DNA of 64,000 nucleotides from Tillus elongatus (lineage: Eukaryota; Arthropoda; Insecta; Coleoptera; Cleridae): contig OZ023268.1 in NCBI GenBank assembly GCA_964006375.1, positions 87,610,358 through 87,674,357 on the forward strand, given 5' to 3'. Positions within the stretch are counted from its first letter, which is position 1, and each line of letters starts with the position of its first letter. Of this stretch, positions 6,756 to 62,252 are shown in pieces. The notes beneath the pieces were generated by a model. That model made no database searches and was not told where the DNA came from. It worked only from the letters and a program-made list of their open reading frames with translations. A program made the position numbers and the translations under genes.

Positions 6756-7880
<1,125 letters not shown>

Positions 7881-13921: not shown

Positions 13922-15588
13922 CTATTCTATATAGGTAGGGTGGGGGTTGGGGGGCAGATCTAGCAACACCTCCATGGCGGCTGTTGGGGTTGAAAACATG
14001 GCCCCTGTGATGCCTAGGCAAGTCATCCTTTGGATCTTGTCTAGTTTTTGTTTGGCACTGGATTGTGTCACGTTAGGCCACCAGACCAGTGCCGCGTGAA
14101 CAGCCAATCGGCCATACTAGGTCTTAGTCCCCACGTTTTTCCATATAGCCGCCTAGTGACGGCTAAGGTCATGACTGCCTTCCGCAGTATTTTTTCAACG
14201 TGACCATTCCAGGTTAGCTTAGAGTCCAATACGACCCCAAGATATTTTACCTCCCTGGCCATTGGAATGTTCCTACTATATAGCGTGATAGTTCTGTGGC
14301 TCTCCCACTTCCTCCTCGTAAACGATATGACGGTTGCTTTCTCGGGGCTCACCTCGAGCCCTTGACCAACCGTCCACCGTTACACCACTGTCAGTGCTGT
14401 CTGCATGCGTTCTCACACTGACTATAACCTTTCCTCGGACTATGATGACAATGTCGTCCGCATAGCCCTCTATCTCATATCCCTCTCCCAAAAGCCTCCC
14501 CAGCAGGCCGTCCGCGACTATGCACCAGAGCAAGGGAGACAGAACGCTCCCCTGCGAACATCCCGCCGCGACCGCCGCCAGCAGAGTCCCTCCCGCGAGT
14601 GAGGTGAAAACCGCCCTGTCCCTGAGCATGGAACCGATCCACCTGCAGCGGGTCTCCTCTATTCCATGCTCCCTGACATTTGCCAGAACCGATCCAAATG
14701 AGATGTTGCTGAAGGCCCCCTCTATGTATAGGAAGGCCCACAGCGCCACCTGCCTGTTCTCTAGCGTATTCTGCAGTTTTAGCATCAGACTCCTGCTCTG
14801 TATGCATATTGTCCGCAGTGTAGGGATATGCTTCCAGTACACCGCCCCTATTGTGCCGGTCGAACAGTTTTTCCACTGTGTTTAGCAAGAAGATGACACT
14901 TATTGGCCTCAGGGACTTTGCCTGGTCTGTTGGACGCCCAGGTTTAGGAATAAGTACAACCCTGGCCAGTCTACATGCCCTCGGAATGTACCCCTGAACC
15001 AGGCTGGCCCTAATAATGAGGGTAAGCGCCGGCGCCAGTATATCTATGCCCTGTTGGAACATGATGGGCATTATTCCATCAAATCCCGGGGATTTGTATG
15101 GTTTAAAGCTGTTAATGGCCTATCTGATTTTGCTCCAAGTAACTACCTCTTTAGCGACTGTCCAGTGTACTTTAGATGCCTATAGGCCTATAAGGCGCCT
15201 CTATTTCTGAGTATTCCCAGTCCGGAGGTGATTGGTTTATTATGTTACAGCCGGGGAAGTGCGTCTGGAGTAAAATTTCCATAGTTTTCTCCCCAGAGCT
15301 TGTAAAGCCTCCCGTGGATATTCTAAGGGAGCCTATGTTGGTCTGAGTGCCCTTGGACAGGATCTTGTGTAGTCGAGTACTCTCGGACGTGTTCTTCACC
15401 TCCTCGCAGTGCCTCCTCCACGACTCCTTCTTGACGTCTCTCAGTCTTTTGTTATAGGTCGTGAGGGCCTGTCTGAATTCATCCCATGCTCCGGACCTTT
15501 CGGCCGCGTTAAACAGCTTACTACCCTGCGTCCTCCTTTGCCTGAGGTCCTCCTTCCACCACGGGATGTTCCTGGTGGACGCCCTCAT
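13922..15588 (-). pseudogene. Reverse transcriptase of the non-LTR element
   Basis: Blocks in order on the minus strand: KESWRRHCEEVKN linker (about 15400), ILAPALTLIIRASLVQGYIPRACRLARVVLIPKPG (about 14930-15040), LRPISVIFLLNTVEKL, then in another frame ALWAFLYIEGAFSNISF, CSQGSVLSPLLWCIVADGLL, YEIEGYADDIVIIVRG (active-site YADD, about 14440-14470), and REVKYLGVVLDSKLTWNGHV (about 14220-14260). The YADD box survives, but four or more frameshifts separate the blocks. Confidence 0.88.
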
Positions 15589-15590
15589 TT

Positions 15591-16040
15591 TCAGGGGTTG
15601 GCGTTATAGACCGAGGTGATTGCGTTGCGCACTTGGGCTGCCGCAATCTCGAGGTCTATTGAATTGTCTATGGTACTCTTAACCCCCCGCAGTATCACTG
15701 CTAGGTCTGCCCTGTAGGCGCCCCAGTCCGCCTTGCGGGGGTCCCGGTACCATTCCGTTTGTCTTTCGACTTTGGCGATTTCAAACCGTATGTATATGTG
15801 GTCTGAGCTACTCACTTCCCCAGACACAGCCCAGTTCTTAACAAAGTCACCCAGAAACTGGGTGGAAACTTCTTCACGTCGTGTTGTGACGAAGGTCGGT
15901 TTATTACCTGTATTCAATATGTCTAAATTAAATCTGCTGTCCCCAGGCAGATAGGCTGACCCGACAGTAATGTCCCTCGGCCCATCCGCTCCTCCACATC
16001 GGGTTTTGATCGTTGCAAGGTCCCTGGAACACAAATTCAT
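15591..16040 (-). pseudogene. C-terminal part of the apurinic-type endonuclease of the non-LTR element
   Basis: The frame reads DITVGSAYLPGDS, then FNLDILNTGNKPTFVTTRREEV, and VSGEVSSSDHIYIRFEI. The SSDH motif is the catalytic Asp-His end of the APE-like nuclease. The segment that normally lies between YLPGDS and the NTGNKPTF block, including the GDFN box, is deleted, and the N-terminus is missing. Confidence 0.8.
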
Positions 16041-16099
16041 TAAAGGCAGAAACTATATCCTTTGGCCCACGACTCATCGACCCCAACATTGTAGTTAGT

Positions 16100-17120
16100 A
16101 AGGTTTAATAAAAAAATACAGCAAGTGCACAAACTGACCACCTTCTGCTGCAATACATGCATGACATCTTCTCAAAAATGTACGCTTTATTCGTCGCGCT
16201 TGTCTGGTATGAGTAATTATTTGTGCTGCTTCATCAATTCGACGAATAAATCCGGTGTCAATAATCGGCATTCCCTAACAATTCTGACCGTTCTATGTAA
16301 GACTCGATGAATTTTCTCAACAATTAGAACCGTCCCTATATTGGGGTAGAAATGGGCCAGGGCTGACAATTTTCTGATATGTTAGTTAGCTGTATCCAGT
16401 CTCTGTTTTTCAACAATTTGTGTTATTTGGAGCTGGCGTGACAGCATACTACTTGGTTCCGCAGCTAGGTGGCGGCACGTCCACTACTTACTGAGTATGA
16501 CCGTTCTATGTTGAGTGACAAGGTTTTGATATAAGTTGTCACCGTTAAAAATCCAAGGATTAGCGGCCACTCAGTTGGGCCTCTTCTATCAATCCGTTGG
16601 TTCAAATATTGTCGCACGCGAACATCAAAATGTGAAGGTGCACCATCTTGTTGGAAAATTAATTTTGTTGTCTGAAAGGTGGTTATCATTTTATAAATTA
16701 ATCGTAGGTACAATCTGATCATCTAACCAATGTACATAATTCTCCATTCAGGTCGCCTTCAATTAACGAAAAGCAGTGCCTTAGTTATGGGGATTATCAG
16801 GTGAGAGTTTGAATGAGTCACCTTTGGAAACAAGCCGTTTGTAATTCAGTTCGTTTGATGACAATTTTCGACCTGTGCAGACGAGAAACAACATCTTAAT
16901 GCCCCACAGTTAATGGCTCTTTCATAATCTACTTGATTTCCAGTCATTTCTGCTGTTGAAACGAAATTTTTAAAACGATTAGCATTTTGATCACTTTTGA
17001 TGCCGCGCTGTATATTCATCGTTGATTCTGCGTCTATCCTTGTAACTGATCGTTCTTGCCTAAAGCTTTGGTTTCAATATGAGCCCCCCGTTACGAAAAT
17101 CGGTTGACGAATAAAAAAAG
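16100..17120 (-). pseudogene. Tc1/mariner transposase relic, interrupted
   Basis: On the minus strand the frame 16722-16465 contains TTKLIFQQDGAPSHFDVRVRQYLNQRIDRRGPTEWP, the second catalytic block with its Asp intact. Sequence beyond the insertion at 16299-16497 continues as HRTVRIVRECRLLTPDLFVELM (below 16298), the C-terminal region. The SPDLTPLDFFLWG block is damaged. Upstream sequence to about 17100 is weakly transposase-like with stops. The element follows the truncated 5' end of the non-LTR element, so it may have caused or exploited that truncation. Confidence 0.75.
16299..16497. mobile_element. Short insertion related to the 45.8 kb hammerhead element
   Basis: A perfect 14-bp direct repeat TGACCGTTCTATGT (16285-16298 and 16498-16511) flanks this 199-bp insert inside the mariner relic. 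Its sequence (GGGTAGAAATGGGCCAGGGC, ATACTACTTGGTTC, GGTGGCGGCACGTCCAC) matches the 45777-46487 element. Near its left end CAACAATTAGAACCGT matches the hammerhead stem I region in the opposite orientation, so this copy is also a head-to-head chimera, but it has no complete ribozyme core. The target duplication indicates retroposition. Confidence 0.75.
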
Positions 17121-17560
17121 TTATACACAAAAACAGAAAAAAAAGTTTTTGTAATCATCCTGTAAATAAAAATAATAAACAGAAAATTCAAACACCACCC
17201 TGTAGCTTGGGTCCTATTTCAACATGTTTTTAGTTGAAATTTAAGAAATAAAATTTGTTTTTCAAACCGGAGCTTCTTGACGGTATCTAAAATTTTCAAT
17301 GTTTTATTCAACACACTATATAAAACTTATGTGAATTACCTGATATTTTACAAAACAACGGGCTAATAATGAAAGGTTCGTGCTTGCAAACGCTTTCAAC
17401 AGAGTTCAATTTGATAGCAGCAATCGAATGATACATCAAATTTAAGAAGGATAAAATTTTTGCGAGCGACGTTTTAAGTGTTGAGTAGTTTAGTTAATTT
17501 TGAAATACGACACTGACCACGTAAAACACACGCAGTATTAACCTTTACTTTTTGTTTCAG
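17121..17560. other. Unassigned stretch, probable intron of the ankyrin gene
   Basis: No element recognised. Its end, TTTACTTTTTGTTTCAG at 17544-17560, is a good polypyrimidine tract and splice acceptor for the following exon. Confidence 0.45.
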
Positions 17561-17639
17561 CTCTTTTTGCGGCAGTAGATCACGGGCATTTGGAAAAAGC
17601 CAGGACGATTTTGGAATCCACCGACGTAGATGTCAATAG
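17561..17639 (+). CDS. Internal exon of a host ankyrin-repeat protein gene
   Basis: A 79-nt open stretch lies between a strong acceptor (TTTTTGTTTCAG) and a near-consensus donor (AATAG|GTAAGTG). With 2-nt overhangs on each side it reads (A)LFAAVDHGHLEKARTIL and then ESTDVDVN(R/S). The pattern A-x-x-G-H-x-x-x-A-x-x-(I/L)-L followed by D-V-N is that of an ankyrin repeat starting mid-repeat. It has no stops, balanced codon use and no transposon similarity, unlike everything around it. I suspect the ANKFN1/wide awake family from the wording of the repeat, but this is from memory and weak. Neighbouring exons are outside the window or beyond recognition, so 17-18 kb is probably large introns filled with transposons. 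Confidence 0.72.
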
Positions 17640-27680: not shown

Positions 27681-31035
<3,355 letters not shown>

Positions 31036-32112: not shown

Positions 32113-32531
32113 TGCGTCCCGAACTTTTTTAAAGACTAATGAGAGCCATACAGTAACTGTGGGACTGCCTTAACTATAACTCTACCGTAAACCAGTAAAT
32201 AGGCGCCATAACACTCGGCAATGCGACGAGCTCTTTACAACAATTTAATCAGATGAAGTGGGAAGTACACTTGGAGAACCCAAATCACCACAACACATTT
32301 AAAAAAGACCTGATTATCGTTTCACTAACCAAGTTAGCGTGATCAGAGGATGAAAAATTCTTAGGTAAAGGGACCGAACTGAGATGGGAAAATATACGCA
32401 GGCAAATTCTGCAGTGTATTGTATTTTTATCGCGGGACGAGGTCTGCACTGTTCCTACTAACTTATCTAAAATGTGTCCATCTCTAGTAATTTTGGAAAG
32501 GTTCAACGACACCTAAATTAAGTTTAAAGGC

Positions 32532-33480
32532 TTGTCCGTCAAACAGAAAAGTTTTTCAGTAACAAATTCACTTGAATTTATTAACAAGATTAAAGAGGTT
32601 AAATTGACTGAAGGCGAGGTTCTAATTTCAATCGATGTAACCTCATTGTTTCCTAGCGTTCCCACAGGGCAAACTTTAAAGTACTTAGAGCAGTTGTTAA
32701 AAATGAATAACATACATGAAAATGTTTGCAAAGAATATTTAACTTTAACAAGCCTTTGTATCAAACAAAATATTTTTCAGTTCAACAATGAATTTTTTGA
32801 ACAAACCCAAGGTACGGCAATGGACAATCCGCTATCGCCATTTATTGCAGACCTTTTCATGAGCAGATTTGAAACAGATCTTGAAAGTGAAAATAGTTAT
32901 TTTCCTAGAGTATGGTTTCGTTTACGCAGTGTTTAACACAAACATTTGCAGAATAGAAGATTTTTTTGCCAGATTAAACAATAAATTTGATTCTATAAAA
33001 CTTACTCACGAATTAGAAATTAATAATAAATTACCCTTTCCGGGTGTATTAGTTATCAAGAATAAAGACACTTTAGAATTCGATATCTATAGAAAGGAAA
33101 CCACCACTATAAGCTACATTCCGAACGACTCACATCATACGTACGCACAAAAAAAAGGCCAGTCTGAATTTTTTAGTAAATCGGTTAATTAATTTTCCTT
33201 TAAACAAAAGTAGATATACCAAAGAATTAAATTATATTAAGAACGTGGCCGAATAAAACGGATACACTGCTTGCCTAGTGGAAAAATTAATCAACAAACA
33301 GAAAACAAAGAAAATGTTGACGGAATCAACAACGTTTAAAAGAGAATAATCTGAAATAAACTTTGTATGCTTACCATTTGAACCTCGAATCACGAGGGGT
33401 CTAGATAGCATTTTTTAAAAAGTCAACTTGCAGCTAACGTTTTCGACAAAAAATACCTTAAAAAACTTGCTAGGTAACCC
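32532..33480 (+). pseudogene. Penelope-like reverse transcriptase, active site deleted
   Basis: The first frame (32532-32936) reads EVLISIDVTSLFPSVPTGQT, LCIKQNIFQFNNEFFEQTQG and TAMDNPLSPFIADLFMSRFE, characteristic Penelope RT blocks. At 32910-32940 WFR is followed by a junction where the YVDD box should be; it is missing and the frame shifts. The second frame (to 33192) reads FNTNICRIEDFFARLNNKFD, NNKLPFPGVLVI and KDTLEFDIYRK. Further 3' sequence to about 33480 is weakly similar, with shifts (NYIKNVAE, PFEPRITRGLD). The GIY-YIG endonuclease that should follow is essentially absent. Confidence 0.9.
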
Positions 33481-33759
33481 AAAAGATAAGGATAGCACGG
33501 ACAAAATATCGGGAGATAACATAATAATACAGATAGTTCCGACAAAGCAAACTATGTTAATTTAGGTGTCGTTGAACCTTTTCAAAATTACTGGAGATGG
33601 ACACATTTTAGATAAGTTAGTAGGAACAGTGCAGACCTCGTCCCGCGATAAAAATACAATACACTGCAGAATTTGCCTGCGTTTATTTTCCCATCTCAGT
33701 TCGGTCCCTTTACCTAAGATCCGGTATCTAAGGTGATGTTAGTTTTTAAAATAGTTAGA

Positions 33760-33830
33760 ATGTTTCATCCTCTGATGACGCTAACTTGGTTAGTGAAACA
33801 ATCGTCAGGTCTTTTTTTAAATGTCTTGTG
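33760..33830 (+). ncRNA. Hammerhead-like motif in the Penelope-like terminal repeat
   Basis: CTCTGATGA near 33775 is followed by one extra C, a GCTAAC-TTG-GTTAGT hairpin, GAAAC, a four-base loop AATC and GTC. CCT before the core can pair with AGG after GTC. As in the 11.6 kb motif, one extra base separates the CTGATGA core from stem II. The complementary copy lies in the left arm near 32300-32345 (minus). Hammerhead ribozymes have been reported in Penelope-like terminal repeats. Confidence 0.45.
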
Positions 33831-33895
33831 GTGACTTGGGTTCTCCAAGTGTATCTCAGTGCTCATCACAGGTTCCAATCTTCACTTAGTCAGAT

Positions 33896-45460: not shown

Positions 45461-45958
45461 AAAGCCTTAAGTTACAGCTTCAACCACTATTGTCCTTTAT
45501 TTTACTAAAAATATTTGCAGAAAATTTATCTGAAATAGACCCTTTCTCTAATGCTTTGGCAGCAGTTTTAGTCCTAGAGTCTATGCTCTATTTTTGGCGA
45601 ATTTTCGTAGAAAAGATTAGTCTTGTAGAAGACCGCGACTTTTGAATTTTGATTTTTTTTTTTAATAGCGCGTACTATCGCCCCTAGAATAATTATCCGG
45701 GTTCAATTTCAGGATTTACGTGTTTACATATATACAGGATGGCGCATTTCTACGGCAAAGCTCAATATATCCGTTAGTCACTCAGTGAGTGGTGGACGTG
45801 CCGCCACCTAGTTGCGAAAGTAGTATGTTGTCACGCGAAATAACACAAAGTGCTAAAAAAATAGAGACTGTATACACTAACTAACAATTTAGTAAATTGT
45901 TAGCCCTGGCCCATTTCTACCCTAATTTAGGGACAAAGTATGTAAGGCTACATGCATT

Positions 45959-46031
45959 CTCGCAACAATTAGAACCGTGGACCGGTTTCGCTCTCATTAG
46001 AGCTCTTCAGTACGGCATACTAATTGCAGCG
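45959..46031 (-). ncRNA. Hammerhead ribozyme, type I, intact core
   Basis: On the minus strand: outer stem I TCGC and CAATTAG, internal loop TATG, inner stem I CCGTA, core CTGAAGA (46003-46009), stem II GCTCT with loop AATG and AGAGC, GAAA (45985-45988), a loop-less stem III CC/GG, cleavage triplet GTC with the cut between 45979 and 45978, then CACGG, TT, CTAATTG, TT, GCGA closing stem I. All invariant core bases are present. The pair next to the cut (A with C) is mismatched. The very short stem III is typical of metazoan type I hammerheads, which are thought to act as dimers. Confidence 0.85.
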
Positions 46032-46097
46032 AAAATACACCTATAAAGTAATACGGCTATAGTAGCCAGCCTTTCTACACTCAGTGAATGGTGGACG

Positions 46098-46160
46098 TAG
46101 TATGCCGTACTGAAGAGCTCTAATGAGAGCGAAACCGGTCTACGGTTCTAATTGTTGCGA
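46098..46160 (+). ncRNA. Hammerhead ribozyme, type I, outer stem I truncated
   Basis: TATG loop, CCGTA, CTGAAGA (46110-46116), GCTCT-AATG-AGAGC, GAAA (46131-46134), CC/GG, GTC with cut after 46140, TACGG (46141-46145), TT, CTAATTG, TT, GCGA. The inner stem I is a perfect 5-bp helix. The 5' half of the outer stem I is missing beyond TAG because the head-to-head junction falls there. Confidence 0.82.
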
Positions 46161-46398
46161 GAATGCATCAAGCATTGCATACTTTGTCCCTATATTAGGG
46201 TAGAAATGGGCCAGGGCTAACAGTTTACTAAATTGTTAGTTAGTTGTATACAGTCTCTATTTTTTTTAACACTTTGTGTTATTTCGAGCTGGCGTGACAA
46301 CATACTACTTGGTTCTGCAACTAGGTGGCGGCACGTCCACCATTCACTGAGTGTTGAAAGGCTGGCTACTATAGCCGTATTACTTTATAGGTGTATTT

Positions 46399-46471
46399 TC
46401 GCTGCAATTAGTATGCCGTACTGAAGAGTTCTAATGAGAGCAAAACCGGTCTACAGTTCCAATTGTTGCGA
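46399..46471 (+). ncRNA. Hammerhead ribozyme, mutated core
   Basis: Complete layout (TCGC, CAATTAG, TATG, CCGTA, CTGAAGA at 46421-46427, stem II, GTC with expected cut after 46451, TACAG, CCAATTG, GCGA). The conserved GAAA reads AAAA (46442-46445), so the catalytic G12 position is lost, and TACAG weakens stem I. Expected to be inactive. Confidence 0.8.
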
Positions 46472-47150
46472 GAATGCTTCTAGCATTATATATCCGTTAT
46501 TATTCAAGATACGGCAAAATATTGTATAAGTTAATTACAGTGTGTTTTGAGCTGCATCTTATAACATCAATTTTGAATTTCAATTACTGATTAGGTGTAT
46601 CATTTCAATTGTATATATTTTTTCAGCAAAATTTGGTATAAAAAGTAATTTACAAAAAATCTTTGGAAGTGATTTTTTTTTCAAATTTTCGTAAAAATAA
46701 TTTGTTTAGCCAATTTTGCTGTAATTTTTTTTTGATATTTTCTTAAAATGATTTTTATGTAATTATTGTGTAAGATTACTTACAATATTTTTTAAAAAAT
46801 TGTGTATTTTCATGAAACAAATTTGAAAATGTTCAAGTAAACATTTTTTTTAATCAAAAAGCATTCTGTGAATAATTATATCTGGACTGGTGTAGTTTTT
46901 GTGTAAATTGCTTGGATATACTCGTTGGCCAGAAATTCACACCAGTTTTTGTGGGAAAATTTTTAATTTGCGTTCGGAAATTTGTTGTACTTTTTTAAAC
47001 AAAAATTTAGTTTGATGAAATACGGTACATTGTTGCTGCTATAAAGGTTATAATATCTACTAAATTTGATGTCTTTCTAAAAAAAACATATTTAGGATTA
47101 TAAATTCTATGAAAATTCGCTATAATAACACACTTGCTGCGTTCAGACTT

Positions 47151-49840: not shown

Positions 49841-52096
49841 CTATCGTACCGTGGGTGTTGATAAGGAGGAAAGAGGCAGCTTGTTAATTCTGGACTTGAA
49901 GGTTTGGAGGTTCGGAGGAGAAGGAAAAACATGTGCCGGCAAGGAATTCCACAACTTGGAAGTCCTCGGGACAAAAGAGCGGGCATAACAAGATGTTATA
50001 TGTCTGGTGACCTGGACAGTAAAAGGGTGCATTCGCTCTGTTCCCCTGGTAGATCTGTTGGGGGCAGCAGGTGGGGGAACTATGGAGGAAAGCTCCTCTG
50101 AGCAGTGCCCGTGCAGATATCTATAAAAGAGAGAGAGGTCACCAACGGCACGTCGGTGGGCAAGTGATGGCAGCCTTTGGGTGAGGGTAGGGTCACCGAT
50201 GAGACGTATAGTTCTCTTTTGAATGGAGTCCAGGATAGCGAGTGTAGAAGCAGCAGCGGCACACCAGATGTGGGAGAAGTATTCGAGGTTTGGCCTTATT
50301 TGTGAAGTATATAAGGTATAGAGATTAGCTGGTGAAAAGTATTTGCGAGCCCGGAAGAGGAAACCTAATTTCTTAGCAGCCGCTTCTGCAATTGATGTGA
50401 CATGTTGGTGCCAATTAAGATTTCGATCCACAGAAATGCCAACAAGAGAAAAGGACTTATTACTTTGAATAACTTGGTTGTTCATTGTGATGGGTCTAGG
50501 GCTGGTGTATCTCTTGTGAGAAAGAAAGCAAGACTTAGTTTTGGTGGGGTTGAATTGTACAAGATTTCTACTTTCCCAGTCTAATATTTTTTGGAGATCC
50601 ACGGAGACAGAACCCTCCATGAGTCTGCGATCCTCATCTAATTGGGCTAAAGAGACAGGCTTAGAATATTGTATATTTGAATGGAGGGTGCTGTCGTCCG
50701 CGTAGCTGTGAACTGGGTTGGATGTGCTCGAGAGGAGGTCATTGATGTGGAGAAGAAACAAAGTAGGGGCTAAAGCTGAACCTTGAGGAACTCCTGCATT
50801 AATTGGATACAGTTTAGAGGAATGGCCATCTACAACAACAGATATGCTCCTGTTGGAGAGGAAATTTGCTGTCCACATACAGAGTTTTGGTGGTAGGCCA
50901 TAGGCCGGAAGTTTATTAAGCAGCGCTGCATGCCAGACCTGGTCGAATGCTTTGGATATGTCTAGAGCAACAATCTGGGATTCACCGTGTTGTTCCATAG
51001 ACTTGTTCCAAGAATGGGTGACAAAGGAAAGGAGGTCGGCAGTCGATCTGTGCTGACGGAATCCATACTGCCTGTCGTGGATTAGACTGTGTTTTTCAAG
51101 AAATTTTAGTAATTCGGTGTTTATATACTTCACCATCACTTTAGAGACGATTGAAAGGAGAGAAATGGGCCTGTAGTTGCTGGGAAGCGCTTTGGATCCT
51201 TTCTTGGGGATGGGTTGTACTCGAGCAGTTTTCCAGTTACTAGGGAATATGCCTTTATTATAAGATATCTGAAACAGACGAGTCAGGACAGGAGCAAGCT
51301 CTGGTGCGCATTTTTTGAGAACAATTGCTGGGATCTGGTCAAGGCCAGAGGCTTTCCTGGTATTAATAGAAGAGAGCATCTTTCGTACCTTTTTAGTTTT
51401 GAAAATGATATCCGTCATTTTATGCGCGACATTGGGGACTGTTGGTGGTTGAACATTTGGAGGTGGGTTGAGAGTAGAATTGCCGGCGAACAACGAAGCA
51501 AAAAGTTCAGCCTTGCCCAGGGCGGTAGAAAAAATTTCATCCCCTGAGACAAGAGGTGGGAACGTGCTTTTGCAGAAATTATTCCCAATAGATTTAGCAA
51601 GAGTCCAGAAGGGTTTGCCGCCGTTGGAGCTTAAGAGGACTTTGTTTTTGATGTGGTTATTAAACGAGTTTTTTGCCTCAGAAAGAATGCGGACATAGCA
51701 GTTTCTTGCGTCGTTAAATGCTTGACGATTTTCTTGACTGGGATTGTGTAGAAGCGTTTTGTGAGCTTTGACCTTTTCAAGTCTGGCCTTGTCACAGGAT
51801 TTAGAGAACCAGGGCTTTTGAGTGGCTGAAAAGGTTTTCTGTGTACGTGGGATAAATAAGTCCATGCCAGCTTGGATAATTTCGGTGACGTTTTGTGAGA
51901 TATCAGAGGGGTCAGGATGAGAGAAGCAGACAGACGCCCATGGAAATGAGGAAAAGTAATCCCGCATTTCGTCCCAGTTTGCGGAGTTGTAGTGCCAAAC
52001 GATACGTGGGTGTGATGACTGTGTGACCTCGGGTTGCATTGCGCAGGAAGCAGTGACCATGCCGTGGTCTGAGCGACCAAGGGGGCGGTGACTCAT
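49841..52096 (-). CDS. Reverse transcriptase frame of the LINE, 751 residues intact
   Basis: Starts within the endonuclease C-terminus (PLGRSDHGMVTASC, SDH catalytic end). RT blocks: KVRKMLSSINTRKASGLDQI, KTARVQPIPKKGSKALPSNY then RPISLLSIVSKVM, HDRQYGFRQHRSTADLL, IVALDISKAFDQVWHAALLN, NAGVPQGSALAPTLFLLHIN, and VHSYADDSTLHS (active site YADD). Thumb and C-terminal region: FSLVGISVDRNLNWHQHV, LGFLFRARKYFSPANLY, and ...FVPRTSKLWNSLPAHVFPS, ending just before the 3' UTR. No internal stop. The ATG is only the first Met in frame; the true translation should enter from the endonuclease, which is in another frame. Confidence 0.93.
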   Translation of the reverse strand: MSHRPLGRSDHGMVTASCAMQPEVTQSSHPRIVWHYNSANWDEMRDYFSSFPWASVCFSHPDPSDISQNVTEIIQAGMDLFIPRTQKTFSATQKPWFSKSCDKARLEKVKAHKTLLHNPSQENRQAFNDARNCYVRILSEAKNSFNNHIKNKVLLSSNGGKPFWTLAKSIGNNFCKSTFPPLVSGDEIFSTALGKAELFASLFAGNSTLNPPPNVQPPTVPNVAHKMTDIIFKTKKVRKMLSSINTRKASGLDQIPAIVLKKCAPELAPVLTRLFQISYNKGIFPSNWKTARVQPIPKKGSKALPSNYRPISLLSIVSKVMVKYINTELLKFLEKHSLIHDRQYGFRQHRSTADLLSFVTHSWNKSMEQHGESQIVALDISKAFDQVWHAALLNKLPAYGLPPKLCMWTANFLSNRSISVVVDGHSSKLYPINAGVPQGSALAPTLFLLHINDLLSSTSNPVHSYADDSTLHSNIQYSKPVSLAQLDEDRRLMEGSVSVDLQKILDWESRNLVQFNPTKTKSCFLSHKRYTSPRPITMNNQVIQSNKSFSLVGISVDRNLNWHQHVTSIAEAAAKKLGFLFRARKYFSPANLYTLYTSQIRPNLEYFSHIWCAAAASTLAILDSIQKRTIRLIGDPTLTQRLPSLAHRRAVGDLSLFYRYLHGHCSEELSSIVPPPAAPNRSTRGTERMHPFTVQVTRHITSCYARSFVPRTSKLWNSLPAHVFPSPPNLQTFKSRINKLPLSSLSTPTVR

Positions 52097-52806
52097 ATCT
52101 TATAGCATTCAGGTTGTGTAGTAAGAAGGAGATCCAAGGGATTTGAGCTGTGTGTTGGGATACGAGGAAAGTAAGTAGGTTGCTGAACCATATTGGCTAA
52201 AGAATTGCTGACTGCAAAAGCCTCCGCTGCTCTCCCTTGTGGATCGGTTTTTGAAGATCCTAGCCATTCCTTATTATGGACATTGAAGTCACCAAGAATA
52301 GTGACATCGGAGGAAGGATATTCAGAAATCAGATAGTCGGTTTTTTCAGAAAGGTAGTCAAAGAGCTGGACAAAGTTGTTGTCAGAAGGTGACCGGTAAA
52401 TGCAACAGATGAATTTAGTTGCAGCCCTGAGAGAAAGTTTTATCCATAGTATGTCTTTTCGTCCAGCTTCTAAATTGGGGAGCCTGGTGCAGGGTAGATT
52501 GCTACGGATGTATGCGCACACGCCTCCATGCAATCTAAAGGAAGTAAGGAGCTCATACCCCGGTAAATTAAGGTGATTAGTGGCTGTTTTGGCACTGATT
52601 TGGGTTTCGTTGAGGAAGAGGAGTTGAGGCCTGTTAGCCTGGAGGAAATGGTGGACGGAGTTCAGGTTAGAATTTAGGCCACATATATTCGAAAAGGATA
52701 TGTTAAATCTCGATGTTGGCGCCCCCTGTACACCCCTCTCCCGGAGATCCGAATGGAGGGGTATTTTGCCTCCGGAATATTTTGTACAAGGAGGAGCCAT
52801 CATCAT
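52093..52806 (-). CDS. APE-type endonuclease frame of the LINE
   Basis: Reads FNISFSNICGLNSNLNSVHH, LLFLNETQISAKT (catalytic Glu in NET), GGVCAYIRSNLPC, RYSP-like CCIYRSPSDNNF, VTILGDFNVHNKEWLGS (GDFN box), and SSNPLDLLLTTQP before TGA at 52093-52095. The RT frame overlaps by 4 bp in a different frame, so a one-base indel near a C-run (about 52080-52090) probably split a single EN-RT polyprotein of roughly 980 residues. Confidence 0.9.
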   Translation of the reverse strand: MMMAPPCTKYSGGKIPLHSDLRERGVQGAPTSRFNISFSNICGLNSNLNSVHHFLQANRPQLLFLNETQISAKTATNHLNLPGYELLTSFRLHGGVCAYIRSNLPCTRLPNLEAGRKDILWIKLSLRAATKFICCIYRSPSDNNFVQLFDYLSEKTDYLISEYPSSDVTILGDFNVHNKEWLGSSKTDPQGRAAEAFAVSNSLANMVQQPTYFPRIPTHSSNPLDLLLTTQPECYKI

Positions 52807-53140
52807 TTTTGTTTATAAGGGAAACCGACTAATACACCAGAACCGGAAACGTCCGTTGGGACTTCACCGGCCTCTTGATGTATGGGGTGGTACCTCCTCG
52901 GGCGTGAAAAAATCCTTTACTATTACGTAAAGGAAAATTCCACTACCACCTGCTATGGATTGGATTGGATCAATGTCTACCCCTTTAAAAATAAGATTAA
53001 TAAAGGGACTATCAATTGTACAATAGTTATGCTTTTCGACATAGTAGTAGGATTATATATATTCGCGCTCATTTGAAAACATTTTTGCAAAGTCTCACCA
53101 TCGATACCTCTCCATTAGCGAAATTTTTTACAATTTTTTA

Positions 53141-56576: not shown

Positions 56577-56831
56577 TTTCGCTTTTTTTAGAATTGTAAT
56601 TTCTTTATGATAATTTCTTCTTAATAGTTTCCTATACCCATCTACACTGGTTTTCCAGATAATACTTATTTAATATTTTTCTCATATAAATGGTCCCACT
56701 AACATTTTAATTTAGCTGCTATTTAAAACCATAGAAGGCTTATCACCATATTTTGGAGTGCGGAGATTATCACTCGACATTTCTTAGTTAAAGTAACTGT
56801 CTAATTTATATTTACGCAGTTTTATATTACA

Positions 56832-58128
56832 CAGTCTTATCCACGACAGGCAGTATGGATTCCATCAGCGCAGATCGACTGCCGACCTCCTTTCCTTTGT
56901 CACCCATTCTTGGAACAAGTCTATGGAACAACACGGTGAATCCCAGATTGTTGCTCTAGACATATCCAAAGCGTTCGACCAGGTCTGGCACGCAGCGCTG
57001 CTTAATAAACTACCGGCCTATGGCCTACCACCAAAACTCTGTATGTGGACAGCAAATTTCCTCTCCAACAGGAGCATATCTGTTGTTGTGGATGGCCATT
57101 CCTCTAAACTGTATCCAATTAATGCAGGAGTTCCTCAAGGTTCAGCTTTAGCCCCTACTTTGTTTCTTCTCCACATCAATGACCTCCTCTCGAGCACATT
57201 CAACCCAGTTCACAGCTACGCGGACGACAGCACTCTCCATTCAAATATACAATATTCTAAGCCTGTCTCTTTAGCCCAATTATATGAGGATCGCAGACTC
57301 ATGGAGGGTTCTGTCTCCGTGGATCTCCAAAAAATATTAGACTGGGGAAGTAGAAATCTTGTACAATTCAACCCCACCAAAACTAAGTCTTGCTTTCTTT
57401 CTCACAAGAGTTACACCAGCCCTAGACCCATCACAATGAACAACCAAGTTATTCAAAGTAATGAGTCATTTTCTCTTGTTGGCATTTCTGTGGATCGAAA
57501 TCTTAATTGGCACCAACATGTCACATCAATTGCAGAAGCGGCTGCTAAGAAATTAGGTTTCCTCTGCCGGGATCGCAAATGCTTTTCACCAGCTAATCTC
57601 TATACCTTATTTACCTCACAACTAAAGCCAAACCTCGAATACTGCTCCCACTTCTGGGGTGGCGCTGCCGCTTCTACACTCGCTATCCTGGACTCCATTC
57701 AAAAGAGAGCTATACGTCTCATCGTTGACCCTACCCTCACCCAAAGGCTGCCATCCCTTGCCCACCGACGTGCCGTTGGTGACCTCTCTCTCTCTCTTTT
57801 ATAGATATCAGCACGGGCACTGCTCAGAGGAACTTTCCTCCATAGTTCCCCCACCTGCTGCCCCCAACAGATCTACCAGGGGAACAGAGCGAATGCACCC
57901 TTTTACTGTCCAGGTCGCCAGACTTAGAACATCTTGTTATGCCCGCTCTTTTGTCCCGAGGACTTCCAAGTTGTGGAATTCCTTGCCGGCACATGTTTTC
58001 TTTCTCCTCCGAACCTCCAAACCTTCAAGTCCAGAATTAACAAGCTGCCTCTTTCCTCCTTGTCAACACCCACGGTACGATAGTATTTAGGCTGTAAGCC
58101 CTCGTGGTGTGTTGTTGAGATTTAAAAA
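56832..58128 (+). mobile_element. 5'-truncated copy of the 49.8 kb LINE
   Basis: Starts inside the RT (CACAGTCTTATCCACGACAG, coding for LIHDRQYGF) and continues to the shared 3' end GGCTGTAAGCCCTCGTGG and an A-run near 58120. Frame 56923-57804 (293 residues) keeps SYADDSTLHS. A CT-run two units longer than in the 49.8 kb copy (near 57785-57798) shifts the frame; the remaining C-terminus is read in a second frame to 58090. Start inside the gene is typical of incomplete reverse transcription. Confidence 0.92.
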
Positions 58129-60571: not shown

Positions 60572-62252
60572 GGCACATTGAAAACGAAACAGACCGATTT
60601 GCGTCCAGAGAATTTTTTTATGAAACGCTGAAACACGTCAATTTTAATATTGAGGGGACATGTTTTGACATAAAACTCAACTTTGTCACATCAACCCCTT
60701 AAGGGTGGTGATAAAAACCCTTATATTTTAAATAGGGAACATGGGTCGAGTGTTACATCATTTCAAAGCTTTTTCTTTTTTGAATTCAGCACACTATTTT
60801 TTTTTAAAGTTTTATCAACTCGTTTAAAAATTCTTCATAGTTGAAGATGCAAAAACGCATTTCGCTCATTCCGATAAGAAATGTGCTTATAGTCAATGGT
60901 TTGTTGGTTTGTAAACAATAAAATGACTATCAGAACATTTCTTATCGGAATGAGAGAAATGCGGTTTATTATTTCGGTGTATCGGTCGATTTGATACTTG
61001 ATAGTGGGTACTACCGAAAATTAATTTCACAATGGTGTATTCTGTAGAAGAAAGAGTTGAAATAATTACTCTTTTTTTTCAAAAACGATGACTGTGACAT
61101 CCGTACCGCAAATTTGTTTAATAAACGACATCCGAACAGGCATGTTAACAGAAAATACATTTTGGAGTTAGTTGCAAAGTTTCGACAAAATGGTTCAGTA
61201 GCCAACAAAAAACGGGATCGTGAACGTGAATTTCCGGTTAGAAATGAGACTACTGAGATTGAGATTTTAGGACAAATTGCTGCAGACCCAACTTTGAGCA
61301 CGAGAAATTGGCCACTGTTTCAATCATCACAAGGAGTACTATTCAGCGAATATTGAAGCATCATAAATTTCACCCGTATAAAATTAATCTTGTACAACAA
61401 CTGAATGAAGATTATTTTGATCGGCGGCTGGAGTTTTGTGAAGTTATGACTGCACGAATAGCTGATAACGGGAACTTTCTGTTCAATATCTGTTTTTCAG
61501 ACGAGTGTACGTTTTTATTAAACTCTACAGTCAATGGTCATAATTGTCGTTATTGGGCAGATAATAATCCAAGAAATTTTCACGAAGTCCACACTCAAAC
61601 TCCACAGAAATTGAATGTCTGGACTGGCATTTTTGGAGACCGTTTAATCGGACCAATTTTTCTTGATGGCAATTTGAGTGTCGAAACGTATTTGGAGTTA
61701 CTAGAAGATATCGCTTACCCTCTACTAATTGTCATTGTTAAAAATGATGATCGCTATCAAGAAAATCAATTAGTATTTCAACAATATGGAGCTCCTCCGC
61801 ATTTTTCACAACGTGTTAAGGGAGTTTTTGAACAGAGAGTTTCCAGAGCAATGGATTGGGCGAGAGGTGCTATTGAGTGGCCACCTAGATCACCGTATTT
61901 AACTCATTTAGACTTCTTTCTATGGGGCCATTTAAAGAGTAAAATTTACGCAACAAAACCGGAGTCTGTGGAAGAATTACGACGACGCATTGTTAAAGAA
62001 TGCCGTCTAATAACTCCACAAATGCTCCAGAATGTCAGAGCTCGTTTTGAACAAAATTTGTACTTTTGTATGGAAGCTGGTGGTCAACAATTTGAACACT
62101 TACTTAACTGAATAAACATCTTTGAACGTTTGGTTTTGTTATTTGGTTTTTTTAACGAAAAACTGACTAATTAGTGCATTTCTTATCACAATGAATGAAA
62201 TACGTTCTTGCAATTCCAACTGTGAATAATTTTTAAACGAGTTGATAAAACC

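Follow-up and report, generated by a model that had tools for sequence, protein, structure and literature searches.

The window, a 64,000-nt stretch of the genome of the beetle Tillus elongatus, contains at 45777-46487 an insertion built from two tracts of one 311-nt unit in opposite orientation. A second insertion of the same family lies at 16300-16497 and was absent from an earlier note on this DNA. Unit positions are numbered from 46098 (position 1), and the two recurrent outer ends are called start site A (~unit 79) and start site B (~unit 256). The features of the first insertion, referred to as the window element, are as follows.

45765-45776, plus: left copy of the target site duplication, ATATATCCGTTA; the corresponding site is single in five paralogous repeats
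45777-46097, minus: antisense tract, one full 311-nt unit and ~21 nt, from unit 256 back round to 236
45959-46031, minus: type I hammerhead motif with intact core, helix III closed by the palindrome CCGG, A-C mismatch at 1.1/2.1
46097-46098: head-to-head inner junction, unit 236 joined to unit 1, with a 1-nt overlap
46098-46487, plus: sense tract, unit 1 to 311 and 79 nt
46098-46160, plus: type I hammerhead motif with intact core, outer stem I truncated at the inner junction
46399-46471, plus: type I hammerhead motif, G12 changed to A
46488-46499, plus: right copy of the target site duplication, an exact match to the left copy

The outer end of the antisense tract corresponds to site B, with 2 further nt before the duplication, and that of the sense tract to site A. 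The 12-bp ATATATCCGTTA duplication at the two sides of 45777-46487 is perfect, as the earlier note had claimed. Its target site is present once in the five paralogous repeats of the window, with identical letters in one and differences in four. The host of the insertion is an AT-rich dispersed repeat (45640-45776 and 46500-46560) with at least five relatives in the window, which are useful as empty sites. GC content is 0.415 in the unit, 0.421 in the element, and 0.346 in the window. The longest stop-free run in or overlapping the element is 67 aa, and it is also 67 aa round the 311-nt circle.

Three hammerhead motifs, two on the plus strand and one on the minus strand, were found where the earlier note had placed them. 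Each follows the order stem I, CTGAAGA, stem II, GAAA, minimal stem III, GTC, stem I, with AAAA in place of GAAA in the third. The state of the cores was also correctly described: intact in the minus copy and in the first plus copy, which has lost part of its outer stem I, and without G12 in the second plus copy. Helix III consists of one A-U pair closed by the palindromic CCGG. At position 1.1, by the cut site, the minus copy has C and both plus copies have T, which gives the minus copy its A-C mismatch. The three ribozyme copies have 79 positions in common, of which nine vary; no change occurs in more than one copy (1, 5, and 3 changes), the pattern that decay after the copying of near-identical templates would produce.

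No Rfam family (release 15) reaches its curated cut-off anywhere in the window. At a lowered threshold the HH9 covariance model does match all three motifs, every score (18.0 to 26.7 bits) falling under the curated cut-off of 52: 45958-46028 on the minus strand (26.7 bits, E 5e-4), 46105-46146 on the plus strand (24.8 bits, E 2e-3), and 46402-46474 on the plus strand (18.0 bits, E 0.31). Thirteen further HH9 matches of 27.6-32.4 bits, also below the cut-off of 52, were obtained in five of the six other genome loci tested. A hammerhead descriptor identified two sites in the window, both of them intact-core copies, compared with 7 sites in 300 Markov-1 windows (0.023 per window). Rfam matches to MIR2593 and mir-2814 were rejected as an effect of the palindrome. 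Exact hammerhead-pattern scans of viral contigs and of prokaryote contigs gave no matches; nine viral contigs with a hammerhead-like pattern were rejected, each having a single motif with no tandem or inverted unit around it.

The plus-strand cut sites fall at 46140 and 46451, which verifies the proposed spacing of 311 nt. That this spacing defines a circularisable monomer is doubtful for this locus, however, as G12 is missing from the 3' plus ribozyme and, in the fold predicted for the locus transcript, the first plus ribozyme pairs with the antisense arm over 63 of 63 nt. Given these two defects and the A-C mismatch in the minus copy, the window element is probably a poor source of circles. 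In one copy, the hammerhead stems are not the minimum-energy fold (-18.5 kcal/mol for stems I and II only, versus -28.9 kcal/mol). In a predicted consensus structure, sites A and B flank a long stem carrying the hammerhead; 0 of its 77 pairs covary, so that this structure is no independent evidence for the fold.

The second insertion has the following features.

16286-16299, plus: left 14-bp target site duplication, TGACCGTTCTATGT
16300-16333, minus: antisense tract, starting at site A (~unit 79 to 47)
16334-16497, plus: sense tract, unit 89 to site B (~255)
16498-16511, plus: right target site duplication, 14 bp

When the flanks of 16300-16497 are joined and a single copy of the duplication is kept, a transposase alignment continues over the joint in one frame (E 5e-13, versus 4e-9 unjoined). 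The transposase relic that carries this copy (15400-17600, minus) is one of three from a single family, the others lying at 28726-29217 (minus) and 61263-62111 (plus); the relic at 61263-62111 has a Tc3-type helix-turn-helix match below the curated cut-off. A possible third retrozyme copy at 2249-2372 was not accepted (nhmmer E 0.049 and 0.21). The outer ends of the second copy (~79 and ~255) coincide with those of the window element, and because of this agreement a survey of the genome was undertaken.

Layout and ends of the family across the genome

The survey covered the 1.72-Gb assembly, in 30 contigs. A whole-element search with a 711-nt query scored the best 40 of 5,096 word-sharing candidates, and a single-unit search scored the best 40 of 1,955; the whole-element query favours copies with the window element's junction, and the single-unit query contains no junction. 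From 55 fetched loci and the two window copies we mapped 59 elements, the loci being best matches and no random sample. Edge elements L025 and L050 were excluded from the counts of ends and duplications, while their inner junctions were kept in the totals of 104 and 44 given below. Clusters shorter than 120 nt were dropped before counting, among them one of 24 nt in L021 and one of 96 nt in L047; L047 would gain one end at each site if its 96-nt cluster were kept. The genome search for tandem 311-nt units that the earlier note had proposed was positive: other copies of the unit were found, some of them tandem, up to ~1,430 nt.

Fifty-seven of the 59 elements could be classified, 41 as head-to-head and 16 as single-tract. 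The window element had previously been described as inserted in rearranged, head-to-head form; the head-to-head form stands, but a private rearrangement does not, since it is shared by those 41 of 57 family members. Of the 98 outer (RNA 3'-type) ends, 85 fall no more than 12 nt from unit 79 or 256 (48 near 79 and 37 near 256), and 13 are elsewhere. The same is true of 19 of 104 inner junctions and 5' ends, where chance gives 16%. One end was found at each site in 31 of the 41 head-to-head elements, and the same site twice in none; under free assortment, the probability of no homotypic element in 31 is 5e-10. The 12-nt tolerance was picked after inspection of the data. Tolerances of 5, 8, 20, and 30 nt give 19, 27, 31, and 31 one-of-each elements and 0, 0, 1, and 3 same-site elements of the 41. 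The single case at 20 nt is L020, a possible same-site insertion whose two ends both map to unit 239 (17 nt from site B); the two others counted at 30 nt are L042 and L072.

The 40 loci of the single-unit search gave 42 elements (1 at an edge), comprising 26 head-to-head and 15 single-tract elements, and 21 elements were one-of-each. Among the 28 inner junctions of this sample, 0 of 378 pairs coincide, with 0.9 expected by chance, which argues for independent formation of the inserts and against the copying of a single inverted parent. Over all samples, 28 of 44 inner junctions show an overlap of at least 1 nt, some of which is expected from chance extension of alignments, and 14 contain extra letters. 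L050 (314-2235) is composed of alternating tracts with two head-to-head joints and runs past the fetched stretch.

Target duplications follow the same division. An exact duplication of at least 9 bp was found at 23 of the 31 one-of-each elements, at none of the 10 other head-to-head elements, and at none of the 16 single-tract elements (Fisher 1.6e-9); in the single-unit sample, duplications were present in 16 of 21 one-of-each elements and in none elsewhere. They are 10-16 bp long, mostly 12-13 bp, and all 23 listed differ. Of 340 random placements, searched a little more narrowly, 0.3% had repeats of at least 10 bp. At a tolerance of 5 nt, duplications are found in 15 of 19 one-of-each elements and in 8 of 22 other head-to-head elements, so the ends are fixed only to within several nucleotides. 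With two mismatches allowed, a score of at least 9, and the edge elements kept (59 elements), the counts become 24/31, 0/12, and 1/16, and random placements pass in 0.9% of 318 trials; thus, even under this relaxed criterion, 7 of 31 one-of-each elements show no clear duplication, and one of the 16 single-tract elements qualifies. The counts leave out an exact 12-bp repeat that lies 12 nt beyond the mapped end of L018. In 6 of the 23 duplications, the last letters at the site-A end are TGT and AAG follows at once; this run carries on the unit sequence and may reflect short pairing of the primer to the RNA.

Tract pieces exceed 311 nt in 70 of 111 cases and 622 nt in 36, with a maximum of 1,430 nt, which indicates a circular or multimeric template. 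The mean difference between the two tracts of an element is 0.065, versus 0.078 between elements; an element's own opposite tract is its closest in 11 of 39 cases, and for L032, L050, and L072 most other elements are closer. This degree of likeness fits a common template blurred by decay, without proving one.

By every feature tested, the element is of the metazoan (non-LTR) retrozyme type, and the identity put forward in the earlier note agrees with its dispersed family, unit, composition, and duplication. Like the metazoan non-LTR retrozymes of Cervera and de la Pena 2020 (PMC7229834), it has a type I hammerhead in each unit (with model scores below the Rfam cut-off), a unit of about 300 bp (311 nt, in a range of 150-450 bp), tandem units in multimeric tract pieces of up to 1,430 nt, GC below 45%, target duplications of more than 4 bp (12 and 14 bp in the window and 10-16 bp in 23 elements), and no coding sequence, the longest stop-free run being 67 aa. 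A helix III of one base pair and a palindromic tetraloop are shared with axolotl HHR_Amex1 and the newt satellite DNA hammerhead, a type that cleaves better as a dimer (PMC7229834); unlike HHR_Amex1, the hammerhead here is predicted, and host and unit sequence differ. The retrozymes of PMC7229834 are described as tandem repeats, whereas 41 of 57 inserts here are head-to-head, most of them with two fixed outer ends, one per side; the main text of that paper contains none of the words "inverted," "head-to-head," and "orientation." The retrozyme class is therefore already known, but head-to-head retrozymes with paired start sites appear to be new, as none was found in the open literature, a scope outside which most subscription papers lie.

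Penelope-like elements of the same genome

The window contains another head-to-head element at 32266-33889, which we take to be a Penelope-like element (PLE) from a motif and a layout typical of this group. Its parts are as follows.

32266-32521, minus: inverted pseudo-LTR with PLE start site 1 at its outer end
32522-33556, plus: decayed reverse transcriptase region; ORF 32517-32936, RVT_1 match (E 1.6e-5) below the curated cut-off
33557-33889, plus: direct pseudo-LTR to 33853 (site 1) and a 36-nt tail ending at PLE start site 2

A protein search with the ORF gave two short relatives with uninformative names, and a search of solved structures gave no match. A 14-bp match with one mismatch flanks the element. 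Fragments of the PLE family are present in four of the fetched loci, and extension gave three more head-to-head insertions, one in L075 and two in L076. Sites 1 and 2, which lie 36 nt apart, are defined by the window copy. In each of the four head-to-head PLE insertions for which both outer ends could be mapped, one end falls at or near site 1 and the other at or near site 2; one sense end may run ~14 nt further, into the tail. The tail end of the window PLE recurs in L059 and L073. L075 has an exact 13-bp duplication, one L076 copy has a 10-nt imperfect match set 15 nt off the mapped end, and the other L076 copy has none. Two longer head-to-head copies (L074 and L076) were mapped at one outer end, at site 1, because the window PLE lacks part of their sequence.

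The retrozyme resembles PLEs, as described in PMC11167929 and PMC3846280, in its head-to-head layout, its two distinct fixed 3' ends, its target duplications, and its association with a type I hammerhead. PMC3846280 describes rotifer Penelope copies with pseudo-LTRs in inverted orientation, one of which carries an optional tail; some copies have duplications of 8-10 bp and others none, compared with 10-16 bp in the retrozyme. The two differ in coding content: PLEs encode a telomerase-like reverse transcriptase, joined in canonical members by a GIY-YIG endonuclease, and the element has no reverse transcriptase frame and no frame longer than 67 aa. Its unit is also unrelated in sequence to the window PLE pseudo-LTR, which was rejected as an ancestor of the 311-nt unit on finding no local similarity above that of shuffles. 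The start sites are 177 nt apart on the retrozyme unit versus ~36 nt in the PLE, and the hammerhead is canonical in the former and minimal in the latter.

A hammerhead-like motif was recognized by eye in the PLE pseudo-LTR at 33768-33810 (plus), with an inverted partner near 32300-32345. It reads CTGATGA ... GAAAC-AATC-GTC, has a 3-bp stem I and an extra C at the base of stem II, and precedes PLE sites 1 and 2 by ~47 and 83 nt, respectively. Rfam gave no hammerhead match at this motif or at its inverted partner. The letters TCACTTAG stand directly before both retrozyme site B and PLE site 2 (tail 33882-33889); at 46346-46353 (unit 249-256), the window element has TCACTGAG, and the majority of the family has TCACTTAG. 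This likeness of the start sites is weak and only suggestive, because 3 of 309 positions on the circle match the PLE 12-mer equally well.

Proposed double-primed insertion and its alternatives

We conclude, with a probability of roughly 0.75, that the retrozyme inserts by double-primed reverse transcription of a circular or multimeric RNA, with one fixed site for each target 3' end, by means of Penelope-type machinery. This reading draws directly on the existence of the family, the two-site rule, the use of one site per end, the link with duplications, the unique junctions of the less biased single-unit sample, and the layout of four PLE insertions. An endonuclease would cut both target strands 10-16 bp apart, leaving what we infer to be 3' overhangs, and each overhang would prime cDNA on the retrozyme RNA at a fixed internal site, one at ~79 and the other at ~256. 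The two antisense cDNAs would run inward for variable lengths, often for more than one turn of the unit, and be joined on meeting; the product would be an antisense tract and then a sense tract between target duplications, and single-tract copies would be one-sided failures. The template is presumably circular, as opposed to linear and multimeric, and the ribozymes are presumably active.

For animal retrozymes, PMC7229834 names LINEs or PLEs as the mobiliser, with PLEs a strong candidate. Penelope-like machinery is most likely here, because the PLEs of the same genome show a head-to-head layout with two different fixed 3' ends. Purified Anolis PAc protein cleaves both target strands, extends each of them, and initiates synthesis at two sites inside the RNA, one at either limit of the tail (PMC11167929). 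The two fixed, mostly different ends (31 of 41) turn the PLE guess into a precise test, that of a protein starting cDNA near 79 and 256, with one site for each DNA end. Should PLEs obey this rule too, their inverted pseudo-LTRs and optional tails would be accounted for by a two-site, two-end reaction, which would differ from the way in which LINEs carry out target-primed reverse transcription. That the two sites are paired almost exclusively suggests a single complex bound to one RNA at both of them. A more far-reaching proposal, to which we give slightly less than an even chance, is that the reaction is obligately two-ended: a dimeric Penelope-type enzyme would hold one circular RNA at two sites, one per 3' end of a staggered break, as the sole source of the target duplication; single-tract copies would be failed products sealed by other repair; and the rule would be general to PLEs and their retrozyme parasites.

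In twin priming by a LINE endonuclease and reverse transcriptase, a first cDNA is begun at a preferred position and another is primed by the second target strand from within the RNA, so that the 5' part becomes inverted; such inserts are inverted, have short overlaps, and have one fixed and one variable outer end. The inverted inserts, the short overlaps at joints (at least 1 nt in 28 of 44), and the 10-16 bp duplications described above resemble this outcome. A 15-bp duplication at Nematostella retrozymes is read as LINE-like in PMC4918200, and the window contains a LINE whose frames are largely open and include endonuclease and reverse transcriptase domains. Both outer ends are fixed here, however, with 31 of 41 elements one-of-each and 0 of 41 same-site at 12 nt, and the single-tract copies, which are the usual LINE product, are without exact duplications of at least 9 bp (0 of 16). 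We therefore regard LINE-type twin priming as unlikely. Double-primed insertion by an enzyme unrelated to PLEs seems less likely again: it accords with the fact that no protein is directly linked to the retrozyme, but it has to contend with the matching layout of four PLE insertions in the same genome and with a PLE protein that extends both strands from two internal sites (PMC11167929).

A fixed head-to-head master, a fold-back element copied whole, would give ends that are shared by parentage. Outside the single-unit sample, 7 of 120 junction pairs do coincide within 5 nt, with 0.3 expected. L018, L020, L023, L026, L028, and L029 share the window element's inner junction, or one another's, within ~5 nt, and L023, L026, and L028 also match in both tract lengths. 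These shared-junction elements came from the query that contains that junction, and chance together with this selection can explain them, or there may have been inheritance in a small group. The absence of coinciding pairs among the 28 single-unit junctions (0 of 378, 0.9 expected) and the 23 different duplications make a fixed master improbable as an account of the family. Palindromes are hard to assemble, yet later inversion of an ordinary tandem retrozyme or satellite copy, or an assembly error, is highly improbable in view of the one-of-each ends of 31 elements, their different duplications and mostly different junctions, the single-copy target relatives of the first window copy, and the transposase relic interrupted by the second, which aligns across the joined flanks.

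A tandem array with a period of 82 bp and ~11 copies occupies 6930-7868. The window contains two LINE copies of one kind, at 49841-52812 (minus) and 56797-58090 (plus), which are presumably jockey-like. The copy at 49841-52812 has largely open frames of 752 and 239 aa, with endonuclease and reverse transcriptase domains. Its four closest relatives, 64-78% identical, are without names; the named relatives of the LINE reverse transcriptase among the best 120 listed are from moths, butterflies, beetles, and a woodlouse.
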